Virus record (IMG/VR): IMGVR_UViG_3300044712_000991
Location: 1 to 64,000 of that record
DNA: 64,000 bases
Source of the DNA: a virus
Direction: 5' to 3' (one strand)
Below, piece after piece: positions 6,680-60,926 of the stretch (position 1 is the stretch's first letter; every line of letters starts with the position of its first letter). Below the pieces are notes generated by a model. The model searched no databases. It saw nothing but the letters and a program-made list of their open reading frames with translations, and was not told the origin of the DNA. The position numbers and the translations under genes are program-made.

Positions 6680-9600
6680 ACGATGCCCATACGTTGTGCC
6701 CACTCCCACTCGGCTTGAAGTTTGGCCGTTATCTCGCTGTCGGACATGTTCTTGAACTCAGAAGCACTCCGAATACCTTTAAGTGCCGAGGTCTTAAACC
6801 TTGTAAAATCAAAGGTTGCGATGCTTGTTTGAAGGTTGACATGATTCGATGGCTCGAAACTCACCATCTGCTTGTCCTTCTTGTGAGGGTCGGGGAGGTT
6901 CAGATCGGTGTAGAATCCGCCCTTCATGTCCGAGTTTGAGGTATCTGTCGGTGATCCCCCACCCCCTGGACCCCCTCCCACGGGGGCCGCTTCTCCATGT
7001 GCTGGCTCGTACTGAAACCAATCGTTACGCTGTCCTAGCCCAGGCGGGGTGCCCTGGGTGAACTCTTGGTCTACGGCCGCAAAACGGAGAGTCTTGGGGA
7101 GATCAACGACCGTCACATACATCTGGTCACTCTCCGCGATGACTCTCCTACGCTGCTTCCAGTTCTCGATATTCCCGAGGCGTTTGTGCGCGAGTCCCCA
7201 AATGTAATCCACATCGGGGATACCGTACGGTACATCGAGCAACCTCGATCCCACCCGACCACGGAAGGGCTTCTCGATGAACACACTCACGCCCTCCACC
7301 CCCTTCTTACCCGCGTACTTCGACAGGTCTTCAAAGACTTGCACGCCAGGAATGCTCGCGATGACCGAAGGCATGTCCCGCCGACCAAGCAGGTACGCCC
7401 CCACAGTCCTCCCATCCGCCGTGGTGACCTTCCGGCACAAATCCCAGTCCACTATGCGGTCGTAGTACTCCGCAGGGGGTGCTTGTGAGGATACGGCGGA
7501 GAACACATCCGCCCGCAAGGACAGCACATGCTGCCTGTCCTCCACCTGTACGGGCTCAATCAAAAGCGACCCGTTCGCGAGCGCCACAAGGGTCTCGAAG
7601 CGCAACGTAGCGAGCGTCGATATCTCGTGCAGTCTGCGACGAATACGCTCCTTCTCCTCGGGAGTCTGTGCGTTCTTCATCTTATCCAACAGGCGGTCTA
7701 TCTCCTCCTGTACGAGTCCCCGCTGCTCATGTTCGCCTGGTGGGGCAAACTGAATTGTGGGCTCCGCAGGTTTCTCGGTCTCCGCGAGGTCTCCCTGTGG
7801 GGGTTCCTCAGGAAGTTCTCCACCATCTGGGCCTATACCCATGCCTTCCCCTGTATCGGGAGGATTGACAATCTGCTGATACCTGTCCTCGTCCGCAGAG
7901 GGTGGTACGTACCCCGTGAGCGTAACATCACCGTACCCCCTATCGATGAGCATCCTACGGACAGAGGCAAGGAACTGGTCTTTCATCGGGGAGCCCTTGA
8001 TGGCTGGTGGCAGGGTGTTGATTACCCAATCTTGATACCAATCGCGCCCGAGTTCTTCCTTGCCCACCGATCCACCCTGAATCTGGGTGTTGCCGTGGAT
8101 GTAGTACTTGATGTCATCCTCAGCCTTCTTGATCCAATGGAGCCAGTCGAACTGCGGGGAGGCTATGGTGTACCCGTACTCCTCCCCGAGGAAGGTCTTG
8201 AGTTCCTGCTCATGCTCAGGCGTACGATCTACATGGTACTCCGCGAAGAATGAGTCGTACGCAAACTGCGCCAGTTGTTCATCCGTGACATACGCCTCGT
8301 AGGGCGCAAAGCGTTCATCCGCACGATTGTGCTCAATGACCCACTCCACATGATGCTTCATATTCTTGAACCCATCGGGGGTGATGGTCGCGAACTTCAG
8401 GAACGGCATGAGAGCCCCAAGCAACCCACCTGTCTTCCCTTCGTTACCTGCCTGCTTCTTCACAGGTATGACATAGAACTCCGAGGCCTTGCGGTCGTAG
8501 TTCGACTTCGGGTCGAGTGTGATGGACACCCCGACGTTCTTGCGCTGACCCCCGAAGACCTTCGCTGGACGGTCGTAGGCCATGCTCCAGTTCGCCTGCT
8601 TACCTGGTTGCTCAATAGAACTGAACCCCCTCGTCTTTATCTCCACCTCTTCATGTGGTGGCATCCACACCTCATCCACCCCTGCCCGCGCTGCCTGCTC
8701 AAGGATGGTGTTCAGCAGATTCTCCGGCCAATGACGATAATACTGCCGGAAGATTGCGGTCTGCTCCGCACTCAAGTGATCGTTACCCTTTTGGTACGCA
8801 TCACTCTGCATCTCACTGATGTACCACACATACTTCGAGACCACGGTACCTGTCGCGGGGTCGTTGGTCTCGTAAGACAGCGGGGTGATACGGGAGAATG
8901 CAATAGAGTCGGCCAAGTGGGTTCCCCCAGTGTCGATGGCTGTCTTCGTTGGTCCGACCACCTTTGCTGGCATCTTACCGTAATCAGGCGTAATAGCAAT
9001 ACCGAACTGCACGCCAGCACCCGCCACATGGTTCTTGGTGTTCACAAGATTACTCATATACGACGACACTGGCACGGAAGAATACGGCCGGATGGGTGCC
9101 ACGGCGGAATTCAGATGGAAGTTGTTCAATGCCCCAACCAACTGATGATACACATTGAATAACTCCTTATCCGACACCTGCTCTCCCAACAAACCCATGA
9201 GTTCCGCATACCCTCCCTCAGGATCAAGGCCGAGAGATTTCAGACTCTCTACTGTGGGGGGAGCATCCCCGTAGGTTGTCTGATACTTCGCCACCAACGA
9301 CTCCACAGTAGGCTTCGCAGGGGGAGGGGTCTTCTGCTGACGTGCATCCCCCTCTCCGTGCTGAACAGTCTTACCCGTCAGCCCCCGGAATCTTCCGAAC
9401 AACGTCTGGATATCAGCGGTACTCAGTTTGCCCGTGAACGCCTTCGCCTTGTTCATCTTGGCGAACCACTGCATAGGATCGGGAATGGCAGGACCCGCTG
9501 AAGCAAGAAACTGTGGCACCTCGGCTTCGTTGGCTACCCACGCTTGCAACTGCTGTACCTGCTCATCCGTGACACCCTGGGGCGTTTGGGATGGGGATGC

Positions 9601-11331
9601 TCCGAACTTCAGGCTCGCAAGAACATTCTTTCGCTGAAGATACTCTCGGATGATCCTCCCAGCCGCACGCGCACTCAGTTCATCCTCTGGGGAGCGCACA
9701 ACATTCGAGTGCCCAAACATCGCGGGCGTCATGGCCACGATGTCCTTGATGCGAGTAGGCTCCTGCCTGACTTTACGCATCACAAAGTTCTTGGGTATAC
9801 CAGAGTTCGACTTGAGAGAAAACTTCGACCCCTCGTCGGAGATACCCACAACATCCGTGAAGTCTGCGCCCGCGAGTACGTTCTTCTCAAATGTGGTGCC
9901 CACGAGACTCACGCCCGTCATATTCGCGTTCGCAAAGTTACAGTTCCTCACCGTCTGTCCAGTGAACTTTGCACCCGCAAGATTGGCTCCCGAGAAGTTG
10001 ACCCCCACAATGCTCACCCGAGCACTGAACCCGAGGTTCAACCCCTGAAGATTCTTGTTACTGTAGTCCGCCCCCTCCGCAAACAACATCTCCACCACCG
10101 CCTTCAGCAGATGATTGTCCTCAGTATTAACAAACGTGTTGAACGGTTCGACATTGCCGGCCTTCAGCGTACCATCCAAAGCGGGTGCGATGGTCTCCTT
10201 GGGCGTGTGGGGCAAAAACACGAGCGAACTTGGTGGTATGGCGCTCATCATCACCTGCTCAACGCCGAGTGCTATAGAGTCCGAGTCCCCCACCGTAGCG
10301 GGATACGCAGCACCCACGACATCCGCCACGATATCATCGATCTCACCCTTGGACAACACATGCCCTGGGCGAATGTTGAGCGCTGAGAACGCCCTCTGAA
10401 GTCTCTGTGGCGTGGCTTTACTCTGAAACGTTGTCAGGTATGTGCGCCCCGTGCGAATGTCCTTGATAGAAGGCAACTGTCGTGTGAGAGGTGCCGCGTG
10501 CATAACCATGAACCCAATCTCGTGAGCAAACGCTGCTTCGAGAGAGGTTTGGGGCGGGATGACATCCGATTTCCAGTACGCCTTCATCTTGTCAGGATTG
10601 AAGAACTGCGGGGATGTGATAGGTCCACCCTTGAAGTACTTCCGCGTGTCATTGAAGAACGACCGAAGTTTCGCTGGATCGCTCTCCATACGCTCGTAGA
10701 ACACCTTGTACTCTGGGTGCCGCTGTTTGAAGAACTGGTACATCTCGTTCAGATACTGAAACTGCTCCTCCGACATATCTTCTTTGGTCAGCACGCTCGT
10801 CCGTTCGTTCTTTGCGAACTCCGCCCGTTCTGCCATGTTCTGCGCCGCAGACTTTGCATATGTGGACAGCGCATACTTCTTCCCGTTGGCAGACTGCACA
10901 ATCGCTCCCTGCTCTACAAGTTTCGCAAAGGCCTGCTTGGCTGGTCCGGTGGTGAGCATCTTCTCCACATTCGTCGCCAACACCTGCCCACCCGCCTCCA
11001 CGAACGCCCCGAGAATCCTCTGGTATAGCGGTTGCGTGGGTAACGACAGGTTGTAGTCTGGTGCACCCGTTTGCTCCACATGTTGTGCAATACCAAGACC
11101 GTAGCGCGTCAGGTTGTAATGATCTGGCTGTTCCTGGTAAATCACACCCTCCTGGAACAACTGCACGAGCGCTGCCTTGACATCCCTGGGCGTGAGCCCC
11201 GTGCTCTCCACCAAGTCCTGCACATTCTGAGACATGGGAGCCGTATGAATGGTCATCAAGACCTTGTGTAGGGGATCAGAGGCATTGAATTGCAATGCAC
11301 TGGTCTTCACGGATGAAAATGATATGTTCAT
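6676..11331 (-). CDS. Giant multidomain polyvalent-type virion protein (wHTH, pentapeptide repeats, EIQSD-like domain, GNAT-like domain)
   Basis: 1551 residues, RBS AGGAG. Order of recognisable parts: two winged-helix-like segments (about 20-85 and 100-160); a run of pentapeptide repeats (about 418-492, A(N/D)(L/F)xx pattern); a segment at about 800-880 reading LADSIAFSRI ... YISEMQSDAYQKG ... AARAGVDEVWMPP, which follows the 'hIRf..R...(v/y)EiQSDwhq...r.Aae.GyD.I' pattern of large polyvalent-protein-associated domains; a Pro-rich acidic linker (1140-1190); and a GNAT-type acetyltransferase-like domain (about 1245-1400) with GVSVFIEKPFRGRVGSRL. A Gly-rich stretch and a helical tail finish it. 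Proteins of this class are often packaged and injected with phage DNA. No catalytic activity is proven by sequence. Confidence 0.65.
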   Translation of the reverse strand: MNISFSSVKTSALQFNASDPLHKVLMTIHTAPMSQNVQDLVESTGLTPRDVKAALVQLFQEGVIYQEQPDHYNLTRYGLGIAQHVEQTGAPDYNLSLPTQPLYQRILGAFVEAGGQVLATNVEKMLTTGPAKQAFAKLVEQGAIVQSANGKKYALSTYAKSAAQNMAERAEFAKNERTSVLTKEDMSEEQFQYLNEMYQFFKQRHPEYKVFYERMESDPAKLRSFFNDTRKYFKGGPITSPQFFNPDKMKAYWKSDVIPPQTSLEAAFAHEIGFMVMHAAPLTRQLPSIKDIRTGRTYLTTFQSKATPQRLQRAFSALNIRPGHVLSKGEIDDIVADVVGAAYPATVGDSDSIALGVEQVMMSAIPPSSLVFLPHTPKETIAPALDGTLKAGNVEPFNTFVNTEDNHLLKAVVEMLFAEGADYSNKNLQGLNLGFSARVSIVGVNFSGANLAGAKFTGQTVRNCNFANANMTGVSLVGTTFEKNVLAGADFTDVVGISDEGSKFSLKSNSGIPKNFVMRKVRQEPTRIKDIVAMTPAMFGHSNVVRSPEDELSARAAGRIIREYLQRKNVLASLKFGASPSQTPQGVTDEQVQQLQAWVANEAEVPQFLASAGPAIPDPMQWFAKMNKAKAFTGKLSTADIQTLFGRFRGLTGKTVQHGEGDARQQKTPPPAKPTVESLVAKYQTTYGDAPPTVESLKSLGLDPEGGYAELMGLLGEQVSDKELFNVYHQLVGALNNFHLNSAVAPIRPYSSVPVSSYMSNLVNTKNHVAGAGVQFGIAITPDYGKMPAKVVGPTKTAIDTGGTHLADSIAFSRITPLSYETNDPATGTVVSKYVWYISEMQSDAYQKGNDHLSAEQTAIFRQYYRHWPENLLNTILEQAARAGVDEVWMPPHEEVEIKTRGFSSIEQPGKQANWSMAYDRPAKVFGGQRKNVGVSITLDPKSNYDRKASEFYVIPVKKQAGNEGKTGGLLGALMPFLKFATITPDGFKNMKHHVEWVIEHNRADERFAPYEAYVTDEQLAQFAYDSFFAEYHVDRTPEHEQELKTFLGEEYGYTIASPQFDWLHWIKKAEDDIKYYIHGNTQIQGGSVGKEELGRDWYQDWVINTLPPAIKGSPMKDQFLASVRRMLIDRGYGDVTLTGYVPPSADEDRYQQIVNPPDTGEGMGIGPDGGELPEEPPQGDLAETEKPAEPTIQFAPPGEHEQRGLVQEEIDRLLDKMKNAQTPEEKERIRRRLHEISTLATLRFETLVALANGSLLIEPVQVEDRQHVLSLRADVFSAVSSQAPPAEYYDRIVDWDLCRKVTTADGRTVGAYLLGRRDMPSVIASIPGVQVFEDLSKYAGKKGVEGVSVFIEKPFRGRVGSRLLDVPYGIPDVDYIWGLAHKRLGNIENWKQRRRVIAESDQMYVTVVDLPKTLRFAAVDQEFTQGTPPGLGQRNDWFQYEPAHGEAAPVGGGPGGGGSPTDTSNSDMKGGFYTDLNLPDPHKKDKQMVSFEPSNHVNLQTSIATFDFTRFKTSALKGIRSASEFKNMSDSEITAKLQAEWEWAQRMGIV

Positions 11332-47621: not shown

Positions 47622-48323
47622 TCAGAAGTATCTACCGAGTTTCCCTTCCTTAGCGAGTTCCCGAAGATGTAGGAGAGCCTTGTCACGAATCTGCCGCACA
47701 CGCACGAACTTGATGTGTAGTTGCTGCCCTATGGACTCCAGAGTCTGGTTCTCTGAGTTGTTTTCACTGAGAGTGTAGTACAGGCGTAGGATGGCCGCCT
47801 CACGAGGTTCGAGATGGGACAGCAAAAACTCCTGGATATCGGCTGCCGCCACAGTATCTACCTCATGCGTGTCAGTACACATGTACGCCTTCGCATCCTC
47901 AACATCGATCTTTCGCCTACTGGAGGTGTCCACAGTCTCATCCGTGGACAACGCGGCCATCTTCTTGTCGTACAGGTTATTGACCGCCAATGAGTGCCTG
48001 ATGTAGAACCGTATCCAATGAACGACGTAGGAAAACAACTTTATCTCGGGGAATCGTACGGTGTCAAACTTCTGTACGCCCACCATGAGCCCCGTGTTGC
48101 CCTCCTGAATGATGTCCATGATGTCCATTGTCGGGGGGATGCTGTACTCCTTGAGGATGAACACCACGAAGCGCATGTTAGACATCACTAGCCTATCTAA
48201 CGCTCGTAGATCGCGAGTTTCCCTGTAGCGCATAAGTAGCGCTTTCTCTTCTTCGCGATTGGTGATGGGATTGTACTGCGGTTTGCCTAGTTCTTGCTTG
48301 TACGTCTCAAATTGCGAGAGCAT
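47622..48323 (-). CDS. Phage-encoded sigma70-family RNA polymerase sigma factor
   Basis: 233 residues, RBS GGAGGT. Region 2: VMSNMRFVVFILKEYS, then MDIIQEGNTGLMVGVQKFD (core binding) and FSYVVHWIRFYIRH (-10 reading). Region 4: LEPREAAILRLYY and ESIGQQLHIKFVRVRQIRDKALLHLR (helix-turn-helix for -35). Regions 1.1 and most of 3 are absent, as in group 3 or phage sigma factors. It probably redirects host RNA polymerase to phage middle or late promoters, including those of the structural block. Confidence 0.9.
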   Translation of the reverse strand: MLSQFETYKQELGKPQYNPITNREEEKALLMRYRETRDLRALDRLVMSNMRFVVFILKEYSIPPTMDIMDIIQEGNTGLMVGVQKFDTVRFPEIKLFSYVVHWIRFYIRHSLAVNNLYDKKMAALSTDETVDTSSRRKIDVEDAKAYMCTDTHEVDTVAAADIQEFLLSHLEPREAAILRLYYTLSENNSENQTLESIGQQLHIKFVRVRQIRDKALLHLRELAKEGKLGRYF

Positions 48324-48328
48324 AAGTG

Positions 48329-49177
48329 CTACCTCCGAATGTCAACGCTACAGCGCCCCATAGAGAGGAACCTGTTGACTTTCCACTTCACATCGCACGC
48401 ATTGCACTCCCCGAACACAGCGCATGGGCGATACTCACTCGTGAGTTGAAGGTCGGGGTCTACAATGGATGCCACGGGGTTCTCCGCACAGTACAGATCG
48501 CGGTGACAACGGTAGATGAGCCCCTCGGGTCCTATGAGAAGTTCGGTGGTCTTGCATGTTACAGACTCCAGTTTCCCACTCAGAGCCTCGGGATACTTGT
48601 AGAACCCAAACAACTGACCCTCATGGGTGCCCAAGAAGTCCTTAATGAAGAAGTACACCTGGGCTTTGCGTGCGAGTTCACTCATCTCGATATTGGCGGA
48701 CATGTTCAGCGGGTGACTGATACCGAAGACACCGATGCTGAACCCCGCATCCTGCAAAATCTGGACTTTCCTGATGGTCGCCTGTGCATCCATCTCCGTA
48801 GGATGATAACTCACACGAATGGCCTTGTATGCTGGGTGCACCATCGAACTGAACCTCGCGGGGGACACCCTGCGAATGAAGGTCTCCGTATCGAACTGGC
48901 AGTTGGTCAGCAAATCGACTCCTATCGAGGGATCAAGGAGATCGAGGAGGTCGTAGAAGTCCTTGCGTACTGTGGGCTCACCCCCACCGATGGTCAACGG
49001 GACGGTACCGAAATCTATACGGTTCAGTCCCTCCGCCAAACGTGCTGCGGGCATCTCCCGCCTCCCCCTGCGGAGAGCCCCGAAGTCATTCATGCAGTAC
49101 TCACATGTGAGATTGCACCGGAGCGATGCGTAGAGCTCCGCGTAGTTAACATCGGGTGGTAGGGTTAGTTTACCCAT
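48329..49177 (-). CDS. Radical SAM enzyme with C-terminal Cys cluster
   Basis: 282 residues from the ATG at 49177 (GGGAG upstream), overlapping the TPP enzyme stop by 8 bases. CNLTCEYC (Cys21, 25, 28) binds the 4Fe-4S cluster; TIGGGEPTVR is the GGE motif for SAM. A later Cys set (C-K-T-T-E-L, YRCHRDLYC, PCAVFGECNACD) suggests a SPASM/twitch-type second cluster site. Last of the coupled PanB cassette; probably modifies a sugar, peptide or small molecule by radical chemistry. Substrate not known. Confidence 0.85.
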   Translation of the reverse strand: MGKLTLPPDVNYAELYASLRCNLTCEYCMNDFGALRRGRREMPAARLAEGLNRIDFGTVPLTIGGGEPTVRKDFYDLLDLLDPSIGVDLLTNCQFDTETFIRRVSPARFSSMVHPAYKAIRVSYHPTEMDAQATIRKVQILQDAGFSIGVFGISHPLNMSANIEMSELARKAQVYFFIKDFLGTHEGQLFGFYKYPEALSGKLESVTCKTTELLIGPEGLIYRCHRDLYCAENPVASIVDPDLQLTSEYRPCAVFGECNACDVKWKVNRFLSMGRCSVDIRR

Positions 49178-50909
49178 GAAGGTACTCCCGTATTTCTTGA
49201 ATCTGCTGTTCGGAGAACTCGGGAGATGCGTACTCCAAGGACTTGCCGAACACGAGTTTGGGGACAATCTTTTGCCCCTTGCCTATACCCACGGAGGTCA
49301 CGCACGCCCCCGACTCTCCAAGTGCACGGTCCACACCACCACGGATATCCGACCGCGACACAATACAATGTACGGCGATGCCGTACGCCTTAGCGACTAG
49401 CAGTTCGTCTCCGAACGGACCATCCACCGCCACGTGATGCCCCGCAAGCCACGTATCCTGTGTTTGCCGAATCATCCCGTAGCCAGCATTGTTCAGAACG
49501 AAGACCTTGATGTTGGTCTTCGCTAGAAGTGCTAGTTCTTGAATATTCATCTGAAAACTACCATCCCCGATAATGCAGATTACCTGCTTATCGGGATTGG
49601 CGTAGTAGGCACCGATGCTCGCCGGAAGAGCGTACCCCATGGGGCTGTTATTGAACGCGGTGAACAACCGCTGTCCCACTGTGACTCGCCAGCCCTGCAT
49701 CGTCCACACGACTGTACACCCCGCATCCGTCACTATCACCGCATCTCTCTTAGCAGCATCCGAAAGGAACTGCATGAACACATACGGATTGACATCCGTC
49801 TCGTGATGATAGTCCTTTGGGCAAATGGGAAGAAGGGAACGCAGTTGTCTCGCCTTGGTTGCCCACGCCGAGAAGTCGCAAACGGTGTCCTTCATGTACA
49901 CCACAAACATGTGGATGGGCGCACGAACAGTGATATCCACATGGTCGGCAATACGCTCCAACTCCGCTTCATCGATATCCACAACGACCTTCTTGGCCTT
50001 CGTAGCAAACGTCGAGAGTTTTGCCCCCACCTCGTGTGTATCTAGGCGTGTGCCAAGACAGATAAGGAGGTCTGCCTCTTGGATAACAAAGTTGGTGGCT
50101 CTCTGTGCGGTGACTCCGAAGTCTCGGAGGTTCAACGGATCAGCATCATCCATGATGTCCAGGGCACCCCATGTGAGTGCCACGGGCATATTCCACTTGC
50201 GTGCAAGCTCGATTACCTCCTGCTCACTGTTGGACAACCTTGCCCCCGCACCCACCACGAGCACCGGCCGCTTCGCCTCACTCAATAGTTCCTGGACTTT
50301 GGCGATTTTTTCGCCCACCGCATCCTCCGACAACTCGGACATCAAGATGCTCATATGATCTGGCTGGAATATTACATCCTCCATCTCCTGCCTCTGAACA
50401 TCATCACAGATGTCGATAAGGACTGGACCTCTGCGACCACTCCAAAGTTCCGTAAGAGCCGCTTCGAACGTTGGTACAACCTCCTCCACTCGCGATATAC
50501 GCCACGCACGCTTCACAACGGGTGTGAAGATACTCACCACATCCGTCTCCTGGAACCCAACCTGCCGCACGCTGTTGTATCGCAGTTGCTCCGCAGGCAC
50601 CTGCCCGGAGATGATGAGTACTGGAATGGAATCAAACCACGAACAGGCAGTACCCGTAAGGAGATTGGTCGCCCCAGGACCCGAGGTCACTACGACCACC
50701 CCGCACTTGTGCTCCGCTATGTTCAACCGAGCATACGCATCGGCCATCATGGCCGCGCCCTGCTCATGATTGGGTGTTACGAGAGCAAGCCCCTCGGTCT
50801 TAGCGATAGAGTCGAAGATGTTCGTGATGGCACCCCCGGTGATACCAAACACGGTGTCCGTCCATTTCTGGAGGTTACGGGCAATACAGTCGCTGACCTT
50901 TACTTTCAT
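49170..50909 (-). CDS. Thiamine-diphosphate-dependent enzyme, acetolactate synthase family
   Basis: 579 residues from the ATG at 50909 (GGGGAAG). Pyr domain with catalytic Glu49 in NHEQGAAMMADAYA, a central FAD/nucleotide-fold domain (GFQETDVV, GPVLIDI), and the PP domain with GDGSFQMNIQEL ... LNN binding Mg and ThDP; SPMGYALPASIGA is typical. It looks active. True acetolactate synthases make acetolactate from pyruvate in branched-chain amino acid and pantothenate synthesis; relatives in sugar clusters transfer two-carbon units to make branched sugars. Gene order with PanB allows either reading. Confidence 0.85.
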   Translation of the reverse strand: MKVKVSDCIARNLQKWTDTVFGITGGAITNIFDSIAKTEGLALVTPNHEQGAAMMADAYARLNIAEHKCGVVVVTSGPGATNLLTGTACSWFDSIPVLIISGQVPAEQLRYNSVRQVGFQETDVVSIFTPVVKRAWRISRVEEVVPTFEAALTELWSGRRGPVLIDICDDVQRQEMEDVIFQPDHMSILMSELSEDAVGEKIAKVQELLSEAKRPVLVVGAGARLSNSEQEVIELARKWNMPVALTWGALDIMDDADPLNLRDFGVTAQRATNFVIQEADLLICLGTRLDTHEVGAKLSTFATKAKKVVVDIDEAELERIADHVDITVRAPIHMFVVYMKDTVCDFSAWATKARQLRSLLPICPKDYHHETDVNPYVFMQFLSDAAKRDAVIVTDAGCTVVWTMQGWRVTVGQRLFTAFNNSPMGYALPASIGAYYANPDKQVICIIGDGSFQMNIQELALLAKTNIKVFVLNNAGYGMIRQTQDTWLAGHHVAVDGPFGDELLVAKAYGIAVHCIVSRSDIRGGVDRALGESGACVTSVGIGKGQKIVPKLVFGKSLEYASPEFSEQQIQEIREYLHG

Positions 50910-50919
50910 ACTTCCCCTG

Positions 50920-51537
50920 TCAAAGTGCGTTGATGATAGCCACTGTAGCCGGAGTGACCTCAAAGAACACTACCGCCGATCCACCGACATGCAGGATGTC
51001 CATTTGCTTACTCAGCCCGTCGATAAATACATCCACTCCTGGATTGGAGTTAAGGTAGTCATGGTAGGCTATGATCTTCGCACCCAACTTCACCGCGAGT
51101 TTTGTGTCGATCTTGACGTTCTCAGCGTCATGATTACCATCAATGAACACCATGTCGTACACCTCGTTACCGCGAGGCACATACTCAGAGGTATCTGCCT
51201 TCTCTAGCACGATGGGCGTGATGCCCACAAAGTACTTCCCATACCTATCGAGATTGGAATGATATCCGGCCCCTCCACCAACAAAGTCCTGGCAGATGTC
51301 TATGGACTTCTGTCTGTGCAGGTCGGAGTTCAACCAGAAACACAGTGATCCGTAACCCTCCCACGTACCTATCTCACACAGGGAGTGCACATTGTGGTTG
51401 TGGATAATCCACAGGATGGCCGCATAGTCGTTCACGATGTTCGGAAAATGCGGACCGTAGGTGTTCACAAAGCGGGTCAAAAAGTGCACGACCTGCATGC
51501 GTTCAGATTCATAACAGGGAGCTACTGGGCGTATCAT
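50920..51537 (-). CDS. Class I SAM-dependent methyltransferase-like protein
   Basis: 205 residues, ATGA overlap with the radical SAM gene. SLCEIGTWEGYGSLCFW fits the SAM-binding motif I loop and YDMVFIDGNHDAENVKID fits the 'DxxFIDgdH' motif of the methyltransferase-24 / cephalosporin hydroxylase-like group, where His and Asp can bind a metal. Likely O-methylates a sugar or hydroxylated small molecule. Part of the coupled cassette. Confidence 0.75.
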   Translation of the reverse strand: MIRPVAPCYESERMQVVHFLTRFVNTYGPHFPNIVNDYAAILWIIHNHNVHSLCEIGTWEGYGSLCFWLNSDLHRQKSIDICQDFVGGGAGYHSNLDRYGKYFVGITPIVLEKADTSEYVPRGNEVYDMVFIDGNHDAENVKIDTKLAVKLGAKIIAYHDYLNSNPGVDVFIDGLSKQMDILHVGGSAVVFFEVTPATVAIINAL

Positions 51538-52640
51538 ATGAAGTTCACTCCCTTCGGCTTGTTCTTGTATGTGTAGGCGAACTCGTTACATTTGTCCTGC
51601 CGACAACAGCCGTGACACATGGTGTGCACATCGAACTCCTTGTCCATGAAGCGCACGATGTCCCAGTAGCGGTCGCTCGACCACATCTCTTCCAGGCTCT
51701 GCTCGTGGAGGTTACCAAAACGGAAGTCCTTCCACTGGGGCTTGCCGCCGAACATGTACCCACAAGGGTACCAGTCACCATTGCCACTCACTTCGGAGAT
51801 GAACGGTATGGAGGAGCAGTTCTCGTACGGCTTCTCCCCCTTCTGCTGAATAAGCGTCCACTTGGGGATGATCTGTGTCTGCTTGGTGCTCAGCGCCTCC
51901 ACCCGTTTGAGCAAATCCACTATCTCCGGCCGGTCGTAGTCGCTCATCTCGAAGTGCACCATCCCACTCTCCCCACCATCGGGCAGAGAACACTGTTTGA
52001 TGACATGGTAGTCCACTCCGACCTCGACCGCGAACTTCGCGAGCGCTTCCAGCTCGTTCGGCATGTCACCCGATGGTACGAACACCGTCTGCAACCCGAT
52101 GTCACAGGTCAGACCGTGCTTGTGCTTGTACTCGACCATCCTACGGATGTTGTCCAAGACCATATTCCGCGCCTTCTCGGACACCCGATGAATGGAGGCG
52201 TATCCCTCGACCGTGAAGGCCGAGATGTTGAAGCGCATCCACTCACAGCTCTCTAGCACGGTCGCAATCCGCTCGTCGGTGTTCAGCAGAATGCCCGAGG
52301 TGGAGATGCTCAGACTCAGCCCTTCCTTCTTACCCACTTGAAGAGCCTCATACAACGCAGGGTTCAGCGTGGGGTCGCCATCTCCGATGAACGCAAGACT
52401 CCTAAGACCTATCCGAGCGCCGGAGCGTACGAGATTCTCCACGAGCGCATCGCGGGACATCACCTCGCCCGTCATGTTCTGGAAAAATCCGTAGCAATAA
52501 ATACAACGCTCGTTGCACTTCTTGGTCAGCCCCGCATCGATATGCACGGGCGGCACGCGTTCCCCCCTGTCCAACCATGCCATGACCCTATCCATGTGCC
52601 ACAGCATCTTGGTATCATCCATCCGCCGTTCTTTATCCAT
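51534..52640 (-). CDS. Radical SAM / SPASM enzyme
   Basis: 368 residues from the ATG at 52640 (GGAGG 8 bases upstream; TGATG overlap with panB). CNERCIYCYG (Cys42, 46, 49) is the 4Fe-4S site, FIGDGDPTLNP replaces the usual GGEP, and the C-terminal region has CSS, WYPCGYMFGG and CHGCCRQDKCNEF, typical of a SPASM domain with auxiliary iron-sulfur clusters. The family modifies peptides, sugars or tRNA-like substrates. The GDGDP variant is found in several oligosaccharide-cluster enzymes. Substrate unknown. Confidence 0.88.
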   Translation of the reverse strand: MDKERRMDDTKMLWHMDRVMAWLDRGERVPPVHIDAGLTKKCNERCIYCYGFFQNMTGEVMSRDALVENLVRSGARIGLRSLAFIGDGDPTLNPALYEALQVGKKEGLSLSISTSGILLNTDERIATVLESCEWMRFNISAFTVEGYASIHRVSEKARNMVLDNIRRMVEYKHKHGLTCDIGLQTVFVPSGDMPNELEALAKFAVEVGVDYHVIKQCSLPDGGESGMVHFEMSDYDRPEIVDLLKRVEALSTKQTQIIPKWTLIQQKGEKPYENCSSIPFISEVSGNGDWYPCGYMFGGKPQWKDFRFGNLHEQSLEEMWSSDRYWDIVRFMDKEFDVHTMCHGCCRQDKCNEFAYTYKNKPKGVNFI

Positions 52641-53596
52641 CAAAGAGGCCTCCATATTGGGCTTGTTTTAAGTTCTTCTAGTTCCTGAAGCGTAAGAGGA
52701 TAACTGTACTCCTCGCCAGGGAACACATTAGACTTCACATCGCGTACATAGGCCTCGATGGCCAGTCGAGCGAGTGTCAACAGACCATCCTGCCGGGTAT
52801 CCCGACCAAACGCCCTCACATCCCCCACTTTGGTGACCACCGTGCGGTAGGCATCGATCACTTGCGGAACATAGCACTTGGCAAACCACGGGCGAAACGA
52901 CTGGTAGAAGCCCATCAGATCATGCATGATGACCAACTGCCCATCCACACCCGCTCCCGCCCCGATACCGTAGATGGGAATCCGCAACTGCTTGGCGATG
53001 TTCTCGGCGGGAAGTGTCGGCATAGCCTCTAGAAGGATAGAGAACGCCCCTGCTCGTTCAAGAGCAACGGCATCGGTGAGCGTGTGCTCGAAGGATGCGG
53101 CGGTCTTACCCTGAATCCTATACCCTCCGAAGGAGGCGGCACTCTGCGGGGTGAGACCGAGGTGCCCCATCACGAGAATACCCGCATCCGCAATGGCCTT
53201 CACTCGGGGGCACATCCGTACCCCACCCTCAAGTTTCACAGCATCACATCCCGCTTCCTTCACGAACCTCAGAGCGTTTCGCACAGCATCCTCATCGCTT
53301 ACCTCGTACGCCCCCTGGGGCATATCCCCGATGATGAACGTGTTGGGCGCACCCTTACGCACGGCCTTGGCGAACTGAATCATCTCATCCATCGTCACGG
53401 GATTCGTAGTCTGGTACCCCAACTGCACCATACCGCCCGAGTCCCCCACCAGGATCATATCCACACCCGCTTGCTCAGCGGTGTACGCGAACGGATAGTC
53501 GTAGGCGGTTATCCACGCCACACGCTGCCCCTTCGCCTTCATCGCCTGTAGACCCAAAAGGGTCACCTTCTTCTTCGCGCTACCATCTTCAGCCAT
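52640..53596 (-). CDS. panB: 3-methyl-2-oxobutanoate (ketopantoate) hydroxymethyltransferase PanB
   Basis: 318 residues from ATG 53596 (CAGGAG; TAATG overlap with the glycosyltransferase stop). Transfers a hydroxymethyl group from methylene-tetrahydrofolate to 2-oxoisovalerate, giving ketopantoate for pantothenate and CoA. Conserved PanB landmarks: TAYDYP, VGDSGGM (metal Asp), IGDMPQG (second metal Asp), VKLEGG (Glu), MGHLGLTPQS, ILLEAMP (catalytic Glu) and GIGAGAGVDGQ. All expected active-site residues are present, so it is probably functional. The usual HSF near the C-terminus is YSY. The phage context is very unusual and no other pantothenate gene is in the window. Confidence 0.93.
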   Translation of the reverse strand: MAEDGSAKKKVTLLGLQAMKAKGQRVAWITAYDYPFAYTAEQAGVDMILVGDSGGMVQLGYQTTNPVTMDEMIQFAKAVRKGAPNTFIIGDMPQGAYEVSDEDAVRNALRFVKEAGCDAVKLEGGVRMCPRVKAIADAGILVMGHLGLTPQSAASFGGYRIQGKTAASFEHTLTDAVALERAGAFSILLEAMPTLPAENIAKQLRIPIYGIGAGAGVDGQLVIMHDLMGFYQSFRPWFAKCYVPQVIDAYRTVVTKVGDVRAFGRDTRQDGLLTLARLAIEAYVRDVKSNVFPGEEYSYPLTLQELEELKTSPIWRPL

Positions 53597-54303
53597 TATG
53601 CACGCTCCTGTTGTTTTGCTGCCTCGATCTTGTCCCACTCGGCGTGCTTGCAGGTGCTCGCCCAGTTCTCAAACGCTGCCTGACCCACGGTGAACTGCTG
53701 CTGAGTAGCCGACCACGAGCTAAACGTCTCATCGGGAGGTGTACCGAAACACGGGTGCCTATGCTCAACCACCACATCAGGTACGTACACAAGGAGTCCC
53801 GCGTGCTCATACTCCCGGAGAACATTATCCACCCAAGTATGAACAAACATTCGGGGGAAATAGTGCCCCACTGTGCGCACGAGTTTGCCCGGGATGACAC
53901 CCGCGTACGGAAGTCCCATGGGGGACAAGATGGCACTCATGCACCACCCGTTATTGCGCGAATTGCATGCCTCGATCATCTTCGCATCCCACTCGGGGGT
54001 CATCACATACTGATCGTCGTTCAAATCGGTGTAGTACGGGACATCGGGGTACGCTTCGCACGCCAAGTAGTTCAAGACTTCCACCATGTTCAGCCGTGGC
54101 CCCACAATGTGCTTCACGCGTGCAAGGACAGGCGCATAGTCCGCTATTCGGGGGTCATCCTCCGCGACGTACACTACTAGTTCGGTGCCCTCACTCTTGT
54201 TGGCCTCCACACTGTCAATCATGTCGTTGAGTTTCTCGGGGCGACCTCTAGAGGAACACATGACAAGTAGGCGAGTGCTATCAGAAAGTACGGGGATACT
54301 CAT
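53596..54303 (-). CDS. Glycosyltransferase-like protein (GT-A fold)
   Basis: 235 residues, RBS CAGGAG. N-terminal VMCSSRGRPEKLNDMIDS, then YVAEDDPRIADY and DLNDDQYVMTPEW follow the pattern of family 2-like GT-A transferases, with DDQ in place of DxD. The C-terminal part (EYEHAGLLVYVPDVVVEHRHP) ends as in rhamnosyltransferase-type enzymes. It probably adds a sugar in the glycan encoded by this island. Coupled to panB by TAATG. Confidence 0.7.
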   Translation of the reverse strand: MSIPVLSDSTRLLVMCSSRGRPEKLNDMIDSVEANKSEGTELVVYVAEDDPRIADYAPVLARVKHIVGPRLNMVEVLNYLACEAYPDVPYYTDLNDDQYVMTPEWDAKMIEACNSRNNGWCMSAILSPMGLPYAGVIPGKLVRTVGHYFPRMFVHTWVDNVLREYEHAGLLVYVPDVVVEHRHPCFGTPPDETFSSWSATQQQFTVGQAAFENWASTCKHAEWDKIEAAKQQERA

Positions 54304-54353: not shown

Positions 54354-55094
54354 CTACCGTGTGACAACCGCAGTGTTGGTAGAAGGAAGAACAAGCCTCT
54401 CTAGGTCGGGGTCTACCCTAGCAATCGCGGCCTCAGGTGATCTCGTGGCTTGCACAAACCTGTCCACGGGTCCTGGACCTCCCCCCTCGCTCTCCATATC
54501 CGCCACACAGTACTGTCGGCGTGCACCGCGCTCCAACAACGCTGCATCCGAACTGATACGGCAAGAGTTCTCGAACAGTACGACCTCCGAAACCACAGGA
54601 ATACCCGAATGCTGTCCTTGCAGATGCACATGGTACTTCCGAGTCTCATCATACCGCAGACCACCCTTGAACAGCCGCATACTCGGACCAATCGGCCACT
54701 TGAAGAAGTGGTACGCATCCTTCACGGTGAACAGGAGCATCATGTCCCAGTAGTTGCTGATAACGAACACCCCGGTCTTCAGCCAGTCCGCGAAGTTGGT
54801 AGTCCACGTCATGTCCGCATCGGGTACAAAGATGTAGTCCCCCGTACACTGGTCGAGACCGTAGTTCATCTGCGCTCTCGTGAAGTCCCATGGGCGTTCG
54901 AACACACGCAACGGCACACGATCCTTATACTCCTCGACCACAGCCAACGTGTTATCCTTGCTCCCACCATCAACCAGCACGACCTCTTTCAAATCGGGGA
55001 AGTTCTGTGCCAGGTGAGCGCAGGATTCAAGATACCACCGGATGGGCTCTTCCTCATCCTGCATGATGGTCATGATGGACACTGATTGTCCCAT
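54354..55094 (-). CDS. Family 2 glycosyltransferase
   Basis: 246 residues. IMTIMQDEEEPIRWYLES, VLVDGGSKDNT and YIFVPDADMTWT (DxD-type metal site) are classic GT2 signatures. The acceptor half has FKWPIGPSMRLFKGG. The Pro/Gly-rich C-terminus (DMESEGGGPGP) is not conserved-looking. 50-base gap to the next gene, no promoter seen. Confidence 0.85.
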   Translation of the reverse strand: MGQSVSIMTIMQDEEEPIRWYLESCAHLAQNFPDLKEVVLVDGGSKDNTLAVVEEYKDRVPLRVFERPWDFTRAQMNYGLDQCTGDYIFVPDADMTWTTNFADWLKTGVFVISNYWDMMLLFTVKDAYHFFKWPIGPSMRLFKGGLRYDETRKYHVHLQGQHSGIPVVSEVVLFENSCRISSDAALLERGARRQYCVADMESEGGGPGPVDRFVQATRSPEAAIARVDPDLERLVLPSTNTAVVTR

Positions 55095-58973: not shown

Positions 58974-60926
58974 TTAGTCGAACATCACATCCGCTAGAAT
59001 TTTGCCCACGGGGACGATATCCGCTCTACGGGCTCGCTGTAGAGCAATCTGTCCCTTCTGCTTGACAACCTCGGGGTGCTCAAACGCGTAGCGCATGAGG
59101 CTCCGCAGGTGATCGAGTCTCGGCGTGGCCCACACAGACCCGATGTAGTTCCTGAAATACGGAAGCACTTGCAACGGCATCGGTTCAAGATCGAACTCTA
59201 TCGGGAAACCCGAACTTTCGTGAAGAAAGTCCGTCATACCGCTGTAGTTGGTCGCTATCGACGGTATCCCGCACGCACCGGCCTCCACGATGCCGTTCCC
59301 GAAGCCCTCACACCGCGAGGGCATCACAAAACAGTCGTGTGCCGTGTACATCGAGGGCACCACAGTCGGATGGAAGGAGTTGGATGTCACATAGATGGGC
59401 GCATGGGGAAGTTCCTGCCCGCCGAGGATGTTCGTTATCCATGTCTTGAGGTCCATCTGGGCCTGCTGAAGGATGTAGAACAGACTCAACGAGTGCAAGG
59501 AGAGGAACACATCCTCGGAAGGCTTGAATTCGAGGATGAACGCCTTGATAACGGCCTCCAGGTTCTTCCGCTCTCCGTACGCGCTCATCGCGAGGAATCC
59601 GAACTTCCTGCGGTTCTCGATTTCTAGTGGTTTTGCCTGGGGATTGAACAGCGTGGTATCCACGGGATTCGGAACAACCGTGATGTCCGTGCGAACACCA
59701 CGCTCTAGCAAGATGTTCTTGCAGAACGTACTGTTGACGACCACCCTGTCCACATGGTTCAACTGCTCGATCCACCGTTGAGGAGGATTGGTGCCCTCGA
59801 ATGTGGTGTGCGCCACCCGGCGCTTTCCTGGGGGCATCAAGTACTGATGGTCACCCTCCGCAGAACGAAGAATCGCCCTGTTCCAGTAGTCGTGGGGCTT
59901 CAGGATCATCTCCTTGATTTCCCAGTCATCCACGGGCATCGGTTGGTGATACTCCTCGGGAGCAATGGCAACATCCACCCCATTGCGCTTGAGACCCTTG
60001 GCGAGGTTCCTCAGTACGATGGAGAACGACCAGTCCCCGTAGATTTTACCACTGATGAGCGCCTGTCGGTCACTCGTCGGCTTGTATGTGAGAATGTCCG
60101 CATCGTGCTTGGTGTAGAACTTAATCTGATTGAACCTCGACAGACCACTCACCGCCTCGGGGCTCCCGAATGTGGCGTTCGCGGTCTTGTTCTCGTAGTG
60201 CACGGCTCGCGCTGAAGGCTGATAGTACGTCTTGAACCCCCATGTACGCGCCATCGTGCAGTAATCAACCTCCTCGAAGTACGCGGGGTTGAACCGCTCA
60301 TCCATACAAGGCACGACCTTCAAGCACCTGTTCGTGATGTAGAACAGAGCGCCCGTAACATACTCCTGTTCGGTGATTGCGGTCTCGATGCACTCCGTGT
60401 TCGGCACTCCGGCCATCTTGTGCTGCCCCCACCCGAAGACCCCGATGAACGCCCCCGCGTGCTGAATGCGACCATCAGGAAACATCAACCGACCGCCAAT
60501 GACGCCCGCATCGGGTGTCGTCTCGGAAGCCTTAACAAGTTCCTCAATACACTCCGGGAAGAGTTCCATGTCGTTGTTGGTGATGAGAATGTCGGCCTCA
60601 GGGAAGAGGGTTTTCGCAACCGAGATGCCATCGTTGCATCCACCCGCATACCCACGATTGGTTGGGTTCTGCACGACAAACCGAAATTTGATGGCATCGT
60701 ACGCCACATTCAACTTCTTGCCCCCGCAGTCCATATCCTCTTGGTACACCACACCCTTCTTATCAAGCCAAGATGTCTCCAACCACGCGGCTGTATCGTC
60801 CGTGGAGGCATTGTTGACCACCACGACCGCAAAGTCCTTCAAGGACTGCCCTTCCAGGCTCCGGAGGAACATCTTGGTGTAGAAAAGTTGATTCAAAACA
60901 GGTGTGACAACGACGACCTTGACCAT
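58974..60926 (-). CDS. Bifunctional glycosyltransferase (GT2 + GT4)
   Basis: 650 residues, GAAGG upstream. Residues 1-290 are a rhamnosyltransferase-type GT2 (VVTPVLNQ, VVVNNASTDDT, NPTNRGYAGGCNDG, ILITNNDME, EEVDYC). Residues 300-650 are a GT-B, GT4-type domain (VPNPVDTTLFNP, FGFLAMSAYGERKN, PSRCEGFGNGIVEAGACG). The fusion can add two successive sugars. It is the largest enzyme of the island. Confidence 0.9.
   Translation of the reverse strand: MVKVVVVTPVLNQLFYTKMFLRSLEGQSLKDFAVVVVNNASTDDTAAWLETSWLDKKGVVYQEDMDCGGKKLNVAYDAIKFRFVVQNPTNRGYAGGCNDGISVAKTLFPEADILITNNDMELFPECIEELVKASETTPDAGVIGGRLMFPDGRIQHAGAFIGVFGWGQHKMAGVPNTECIETAITEQEYVTGALFYITNRCLKVVPCMDERFNPAYFEEVDYCTMARTWGFKTYYQPSARAVHYENKTANATFGSPEAVSGLSRFNQIKFYTKHDADILTYKPTSDRQALISGKIYGDWSFSIVLRNLAKGLKRNGVDVAIAPEEYHQPMPVDDWEIKEMILKPHDYWNRAILRSAEGDHQYLMPPGKRRVAHTTFEGTNPPQRWIEQLNHVDRVVVNSTFCKNILLERGVRTDITVVPNPVDTTLFNPQAKPLEIENRRKFGFLAMSAYGERKNLEAVIKAFILEFKPSEDVFLSLHSLSLFYILQQAQMDLKTWITNILGGQELPHAPIYVTSNSFHPTVVPSMYTAHDCFVMPSRCEGFGNGIVEAGACGIPSIATNYSGMTDFLHESSGFPIEFDLEPMPLQVLPYFRNYIGSVWATPRLDHLRSLMRYAFEHPEVVKQKGQIALQRARRADIVPVGKILADVMFD

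Follow-up and report, generated by a model that had tools for sequence, protein, structure and literature searches.

The 64-kb window analysed here, part of the 194,278-bp IMG/VR virus record IMGVR_UViG_3300044712_000991, carries a cassette of five enzymes downstream of a glycosyltransferase-like gene (GTx), which on balance probably supplies the glycosyltransferase island of this phage with an unusual sugar that is carbon-branched and probably methylated. The cassette genes are on the minus strand throughout, where the 5'→3' order is GTx, a PanB-like ketopantoate hydroxymethyltransferase, a radical S-adenosylmethionine (SAM) enzyme with a SPASM domain (rSAM1), a methyltransferase, a thiamine diphosphate (ThDP)-dependent enzyme, a second radical SAM enzyme (rSAM2) and a sigma-70-like gene. 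The initial annotation had described these five enzymes as a cassette chained by overlaps after a glycosyltransferase. This is borne out by the junctions from GTx to rSAM2, which read directly as TAATG, TGATG, ATGA, a 10-base gap and an 8-base overlap, and by Pfam searches that confirmed the domains:

53596..54303, minus strand: GTx, phage glycosyltransferase-like protein, 235 aa (PHROG 14945 glycosyltransferase, 1e-19; homologues in 13/31 viral rSAM1 loci)
52640..53596, minus strand: PanB-like ketopantoate hydroxymethyltransferase of a sugar-island clade, 318 aa from ATG (Pfam PF02548, Pantoate_transf, 3e-94)
51534..52640, minus strand: rSAM1, radical SAM/SPASM enzyme, 368 aa from ATG (Pfam PF04055, 9e-15, and PF13186, SPASM, 3e-10)
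50920..51537, minus strand: class I SAM methyltransferase of the Methyltransf_24 type (PF13578, 1e-7)
49170..50909, minus strand: predicted YerE-like ThDP-dependent carboligase, 579 aa from ATG (Pfam TPP_enzyme N/M/C, 1e-28 to 1e-34)
48329..49177, minus strand: rSAM2, second radical SAM enzyme, 282 aa (PF04055, 1e-9)

The upstream starts of the longest open reading frames (ORFs) are probably not used by the cassette genes; the residue numbers given below for the motifs of the ThDP enzyme, rSAM1 and rSAM2 are those of the long ORF. The GC fraction of the cassette (0.551) matches that of the whole record (0.552), and thus gives no sign of a very recent pick-up.

The window PanB belongs to the PanB protein family: besides matching PF02548, it passes the panB equivalog cut-off of NCBIfam (TIGR00222; 276 versus 208 bits), and its residues D66, S67, D105, K135, E137 and E204 align with D45, S46, D84, K112, E114 and E181 of E. 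coli PanB, which are catalytic in that enzyme. Every residue binding the 2-oxo acid and Mg is retained. Whereas it shares its fold family, catalytic and Mg ligands and equivalog score with the PanB of pantothenate synthesis, it falls in a separate clade in our tree, which we term PanB-S. This clade comprises the phage PanB sequences and eight bacterial ones at 58–66% identity, with ultrafast bootstrap (UFBoot) values of 94 when L102 is included and 99 when the Prochlorococcus-associated phage L101 is. PanB-S has fixed G68, Q108 and R249; the first two are diagnostic, since E. coli L47 and F87, which adjoin the substrate and Mg ligands, are always replaced by Gly and Gln in the clade. These changes may alter the substrate of PanB-S. 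Moreover, five of the eight bacterial genomes bearing PanB-S also encode a canonical PanB, and its phage genes lie in sugar islands. Given its separate clade, and since the genes for PanC and IlvD were found in none of the 15 viral records (possible fragments, so that each absence is weak but consistent), we do not assign the window PanB to the pantothenate pathway.

When viral contigs were scanned with the window PanB, six relatives at 60–68% identity were recovered, and an alignment scan recovered more. In a collection of isolate phages no PanB match reached 60% identity (best 46%), and the PanB and ThDP matches there consist largely of short records that lack annotation or of bacterial contigs that carry housekeeping genes. 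At L021:7489-10966, PanB-S comes directly after genes resembling, by eye, O-acetylhomoserine sulfhydrylase and homoserine O-acetyltransferase; such neighbours would make sense if PanB-S produced 4-hydroxy-2-oxobutanoate, homoserine in its keto form. At L015:7799-11643, in a metagenome-assembled genome (MAG) of Bacteroidetes, a polysaccharide-like locus has PanB-S next to proteins of the HpcH/HpaI and MaoC types, followed by what appears by eye to be a BKACE-like gene. In two spirochaete MAGs (L017:11129-12217 and L018:2767-4029) a similar-looking protein of 362–420 aa is encoded 3' of PanB-S, and that of L017 has no Pfam match. The deposited record of the Microcystis phage MaAM05 (L154, MW495066.1) groups canonical panB and panC with suf genes, a stretch more suggestive of host DNA than of a phage module.

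The ThDP enzyme likewise keeps its catalytic Glu and the GDG...N motif (E67, G466-D467-G468 and N491), so that the retention of active-site residues in both enzymes holds as initially annotated. In a maximum-likelihood tree all the cassette ThDP enzymes group first with JanthE (8rph; UFBoot 100) and then with 5ahk (UFBoot 96), which we take to be a Pseudomonas YerE homologue, while IlvB, IlvG, IlvI and the plant acetohydroxyacid synthase (AHAS) lie outside this group. Within it, the window ThDP enzyme belongs to a clade of rSAM-linked ThDP enzymes (UFBoot 100). Its best NCBIfam match scores 361 bits, far below the acetolactate synthase cut-off of 738, and it has a Thr where the enterobacterial and staphylococcal AHAS references have Trp; by its tree position and the failed curated cut-off it is not an AHAS of the IlvB/IlvG/IlvI kind. 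A single-sequence search does not separate AHAS (256 bits) from JanthE (240 bits), and the tree is therefore the main evidence for the YerE-like placement. A three-sequence profile puts 5ahk (408 bits) and JanthE (393) ahead of IlvB (368), and the PanB-linked ThDP enzyme of L003 matches JanthE, the protein of structure 8rph (PMC12188165), with 437 bits, the next chain scoring no more than 270. Accordingly, the pick-up of an ordinary host ilvB, which the initial annotation had named as fatal to the cassette idea, is ruled out by the tree, and the GC content also equals that of the record. From this placement we infer a YerE-like carboligase that would couple 2-oxo acids to ketones. The typical deoxyketosugar cluster is absent around the window gene and present around its relatives; the clade placement stands. 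Single-sequence scans of the viral contigs with the window ThDP enzyme or rSAM2 found nothing, and alignment queries were needed. Two genes, of about 335 and 250 aa, together encode the ThDP enzyme in six contigs (L007, L096, L097, L099, L103 and L104, near 8200-10000); the recurrence indicates a natural split rather than an assembly error.

The neighbourhoods of these genes also support a sugar product. An acetolactate synthase-like ThDP gene lies within 5 kb of panB in 15/15 non-redundant viral loci, the window included, versus 0/71 other PanB loci (p = 5e-17, uncorrected for kinship); sugar-type enzymes occur within 10 kb of panB in 14/15 viral loci and in 0/71 of the other bacterial PanB loci. 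What PanB has in common with HpcH/HpaI aldolases, NeuB synthases and Ldh_2 dehydrogenases is that each makes or handles 2-oxo acids. When an alignment of the PanB-linked ThDP enzymes was used to scan for further loci, 70 non-redundant viral YerE-like loci were obtained, and exactly one such enzyme was found nearby in 66 of them (PanB in 43, NeuB in 16, HpcH/HpaI in five and Ldh_2 in two) and never two; of the other four loci, two run off the contig end and two are without any. As all four handle 2-oxo acids, we read them as alternative suppliers of the donor. The gene identities, the clades, the conserved associations and this mutual exclusion of donor-type enzymes are direct observations. In the ThDP neighbourhoods of L218 and L220-L234, YerE-like loci without PanB have a NeuB-family synthase, some together with an AroB-related cyclising protein.

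The relatives also show a conserved association with genes for RfbH, 4,6-dehydratase, short-chain dehydrogenase/reductase (SDR) proteins and glycosyltransferases. RfbH is encoded within 5 kb in 54 of the 70 viral YerE-like loci. In L022, genes for glucose-1-phosphate cytidylyltransferase, CDP-glucose 4,6-dehydratase and an RfbH-like protein stand immediately before ThDP-PanB, and the RfbH of L003 scores above its equivalog cut-off; this gene set is that of a yersiniose-type route. The phage loci thus resemble the systems of the YerE-like carboligases (YerE, ErwE and JanthE) of C-4 branched deoxysugar pathways, as for yersiniose and erwiniose: the window ThDP enzyme shares a clade with JanthE, and its relatives likewise sit with RfbF/RfbG/RfbH and SDR genes. 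The window cassette differs in being phage-borne, in having PanB as the apparent donor maker, in missing the RfbH/dehydratase part and in possessing the radical SAM pair.

The substrates, reaction order, final sugar and glycosylated target we infer as follows. Using methylene-tetrahydrofolate, PanB would hydroxymethylate a small 2-oxo acid; the product would be a 4-hydroxy-2-oxo acid, for instance 4-hydroxy-2-oxobutanoate or ketopantoate. The YerE-like ThDP enzyme would decarboxylate that acid and attach what remains, a hydroxyacyl fragment, at the keto group of an activated sugar, creating a tertiary alcohol branch. A product of this type matches the donor preference of the YerE-like ErwE, which favours 4-hydroxy-2-oxo acids and does not use pyruvate (PMC12247030, a review). 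In most of the related phages the ketosugar would come from the 4,6-dehydratase and RfbH, with the neighbouring SDR as the probable reductase of the branch ketone. In this phage, forming or remodelling the ketosugar probably falls to the DesII-like radical SAM pair, a role proposed because the record is without SDR and nucleotidyltransferase matches, and methylation and transfer by the glycosyltransferases would follow. Making or reshaping the ketosugar acceptor by the radical SAM pair is a proposal, and the weakest step of the scheme. We advance only tentatively the specific version in which a PanB recruited from vitamin synthesis makes the donor, the radical SAM pair replaces dehydratase and RfbH, and the product is an undescribed C-branched sugar. 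The initial annotation had thought of a branched sugar formed by a two-carbon transfer and a C1 addition; the branching fits the phylogeny, the association with RfbH, 4,6-dehydratase and SDR genes and YerE-like chemistry (PMC12247030), whereas the C1 addition calls for a modification, it being more likely that PanB makes the 2-oxo-acid donor than that it alters the sugar itself.

The two remaining enzymes central to this scheme are radical SAM proteins by domain and by their CX3CX2C motif (C47-C51-C54 in rSAM1, C51-C55-C58 in rSAM2). The phage relatives of rSAM1 reach 55–57% identity, and a wider scan yielded 33 loci; among 31 viral ones, rSAM2 accompanies it in 21, a ThDP enzyme in 22, GTx in 13 and the methyltransferase in five. 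Sugar-branching ThDP enzymes come in three families, namely YerE-like, alphaKADH2 and split transketolase enzymes (PMC12247030), and genes resembling all three occur near rSAM1 in phages: the YerE-like type in ten loci, a two-gene E1 type in about eleven and a split transketolase in one (L117). In the last, this third type lies directly 3' of rSAM1 (L117:11085-12320; Transketolase_N 2e-14, Transket_pyr 4e-19). Other phages thus have two-gene E1-type or transketolase-type ThDP enzymes near rSAM1/rSAM2, as in the alphaKADH2 and split transketolase systems, whereas the window has the single-chain YerE-like type; the phage E1-type pairs are assigned to alphaKADH2 by domains only. Relatives of rSAM2 (49–53%) adjoin rSAM1 in L106-L108, and a relative of the methyltransferase (35%) adjoins rSAM1/rSAM2 in L106. 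Upstream of the rSAM cassette, L107:6073-7497 and L108:2919-4337 have, by eye, thermosome-like chaperonin genes, which hint at archaeal hosts. In the isolate-phage collection rSAM1 has relatives of only 22–23% identity and rSAM2 none.

The AlphaFold model of rSAM1 (predicted local distance difference test score, pLDDT, 93.6) has as its six best Foldseek matches DesII, a radical SAM enzyme acting on a TDP-amino sugar (E 7e-17, template modelling (TM) score 0.64), which is also among the sequence-profile matches. It differs from the DesII system in its low identity and in that the window has no aminosugar pathway genes. The nearest folds of rSAM2 (pLDDT 90) are SPASM peptide maturases such as SuiB and, in part, the dehydrogenase SpeY. 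A combination of rSAM1, PanB and ThDP is also found in bacteria: in a glycan locus that includes NeuB-like and PseF-like genes, a 196-kb Bacteriovoracales contig (L020) has, in this order, an rSAM1 relative (30%), a GNAT protein, PanB (58%) and the best bacterial match of the ThDP enzyme (41%). Relatives of rSAM1 are present in 16 of 291 genomes of its phylum.

The slot occupied by the cassette is bounded by island genes that recur in the phage L098, where synteny with the window holds on either flank (glycosyltransferases 53–66%, sigma factor 50%) and PanB-ThDP occupies the same slot with different partner genes, the sigma-factor orthologue (50%) standing on the far side of the PanB-ThDP block:

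54354..55094, minus strand: GT2-family glycosyltransferase of the surrounding island (PF00535, 5e-16; 66% orthologue in L098)
47622..48323, minus strand: sigma-70-like factor, 3' boundary of the slot (Sigma70_r4, 3e-11)

The same island encodes a putative phage metallopeptidase (57112-57600, PF18894) as well as a protein of 650 aa (58974-60926) that combines GT2 and group 1/GT4 domains. No tRNAs or RNA families were found within the window. DNA hypermodification via a dCMP hydroxymethylase-like enzyme was rejected, there being no PF00303 match in the record, which may be incomplete, or in four relatives.

Several explanations compete with this reading. The initial annotation had also offered a pantothenate/coenzyme A (CoA) module, in which the phage would raise host ketopantoate and the ThDP enzyme would be an acetolactate synthase. 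The window PanB does pass the panB equivalog cut-off, and a viral pantoate transferase of the same family was reported as a vitamin auxiliary metabolic gene of marine viruses in an oxygen-minimum zone and assigned to CoA supply (PMC8940887). We regard such a booster as highly improbable and largely refuted by the absence of PanC and IlvD from the 15 viral records, the separate PanB clade with a canonical paralogue alongside in five of eight bacterial genomes, a ThDP enzyme that lies outside AHAS and has Thr in place of the AHAS Trp, and the RfbH, SDR and glycosyltransferase neighbours of the relatives; the loci studied here point to sugar synthesis instead. The marine report also means that the gene is not as new for a phage as had been supposed, although we found in the open-access literature no description of a phage PanB with ThDP or sugar genes. 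A branched sugar made in another order, with the ThDP enzyme transferring acetyl from pyruvate to a ketosugar and PanB hydroxymethylating the new methyl ketone or another ketosugar carbon, would show the same gene associations. YerE itself uses pyruvate (PMC12247030), and the clade-specific residues of PanB-S near the metal and substrate ligands could admit a larger substrate. It is rather unlikely, as PanB is replaced in other loci by NeuB, HpcH/HpaI and Ldh_2, which are 2-oxo-acid enzymes rather than sugar modifiers, and as all its residues for binding the 2-oxo acid and Mg are kept.

It is also unlikely that the cassette is unlinked cargo with no common product, in which PanB and the ThDP enzyme would serve a branched-sugar path of their own, and the roles of rSAM1, rSAM2 and the methyltransferase would lie in a different sugar or in peptide modification. 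The modules are indeed apart in most phages (rSAM genes without PanB in L105-L135, PanB-ThDP without rSAM1 in 13/15 loci), and the folds nearest to rSAM2 are peptide maturases such as SuiB; against this stand the sugar-branching-type ThDP enzyme in 22 of the 31 rSAM1 loci, the place of the window ThDP enzyme in the rSAM-linked clade, the union of rSAM1, PanB and ThDP in the bacterial L020 and the tight overlaps of the cassette genes. The branched-sugar reading that we prefer has points against it as well. The identical five-gene set has no second instance among the loci found, and the window PanB and ThDP genes are not adjacent, with two genes between them. A ThDP gene is within 5 kb in only 2/7 bacterial PanB-S loci, and classical activity of the window PanB is possible, given its equivalog score. 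The NeuB-linked loci form one block of the scan with more distant ThDP enzymes (35–42% identity), and the donor-type swaps may reflect few independent events. The likeness of rSAM1 to DesII amounts to 15–17% identity and a TM score of about 0.6, with many SPASM enzymes, including peptide maturases, at nearly equal score. The record has no match to the SDR epimerase/dehydratase (PF01370) or NTP_transferase (PF00483) families, and hence the host, or else a route that escaped recognition, must provide the sugar substrate; all the enzymatic chemistry of the cassette is predicted from sequence. The expected recurrence across phages is seen in part: the exact five genes were not found elsewhere, but dozens of phages share some of them in sets that overlap. 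The cassette itself is real, and best read as assembled from two recurrent phage modules.

Together, these observations give PanB a likely second role, as a maker of donors for branched sugars. Where viral surveys count genes of the panB type as vitamin or CoA auxiliary genes, some of these may have been misread and may instead serve glycan synthesis. The swappable donor position beside the phage YerE-like enzymes further leads us to expect that phages make various branched sugars as yet unseen, for which changes of the host surface and the glycosylation of virions or DNA are candidate purposes.

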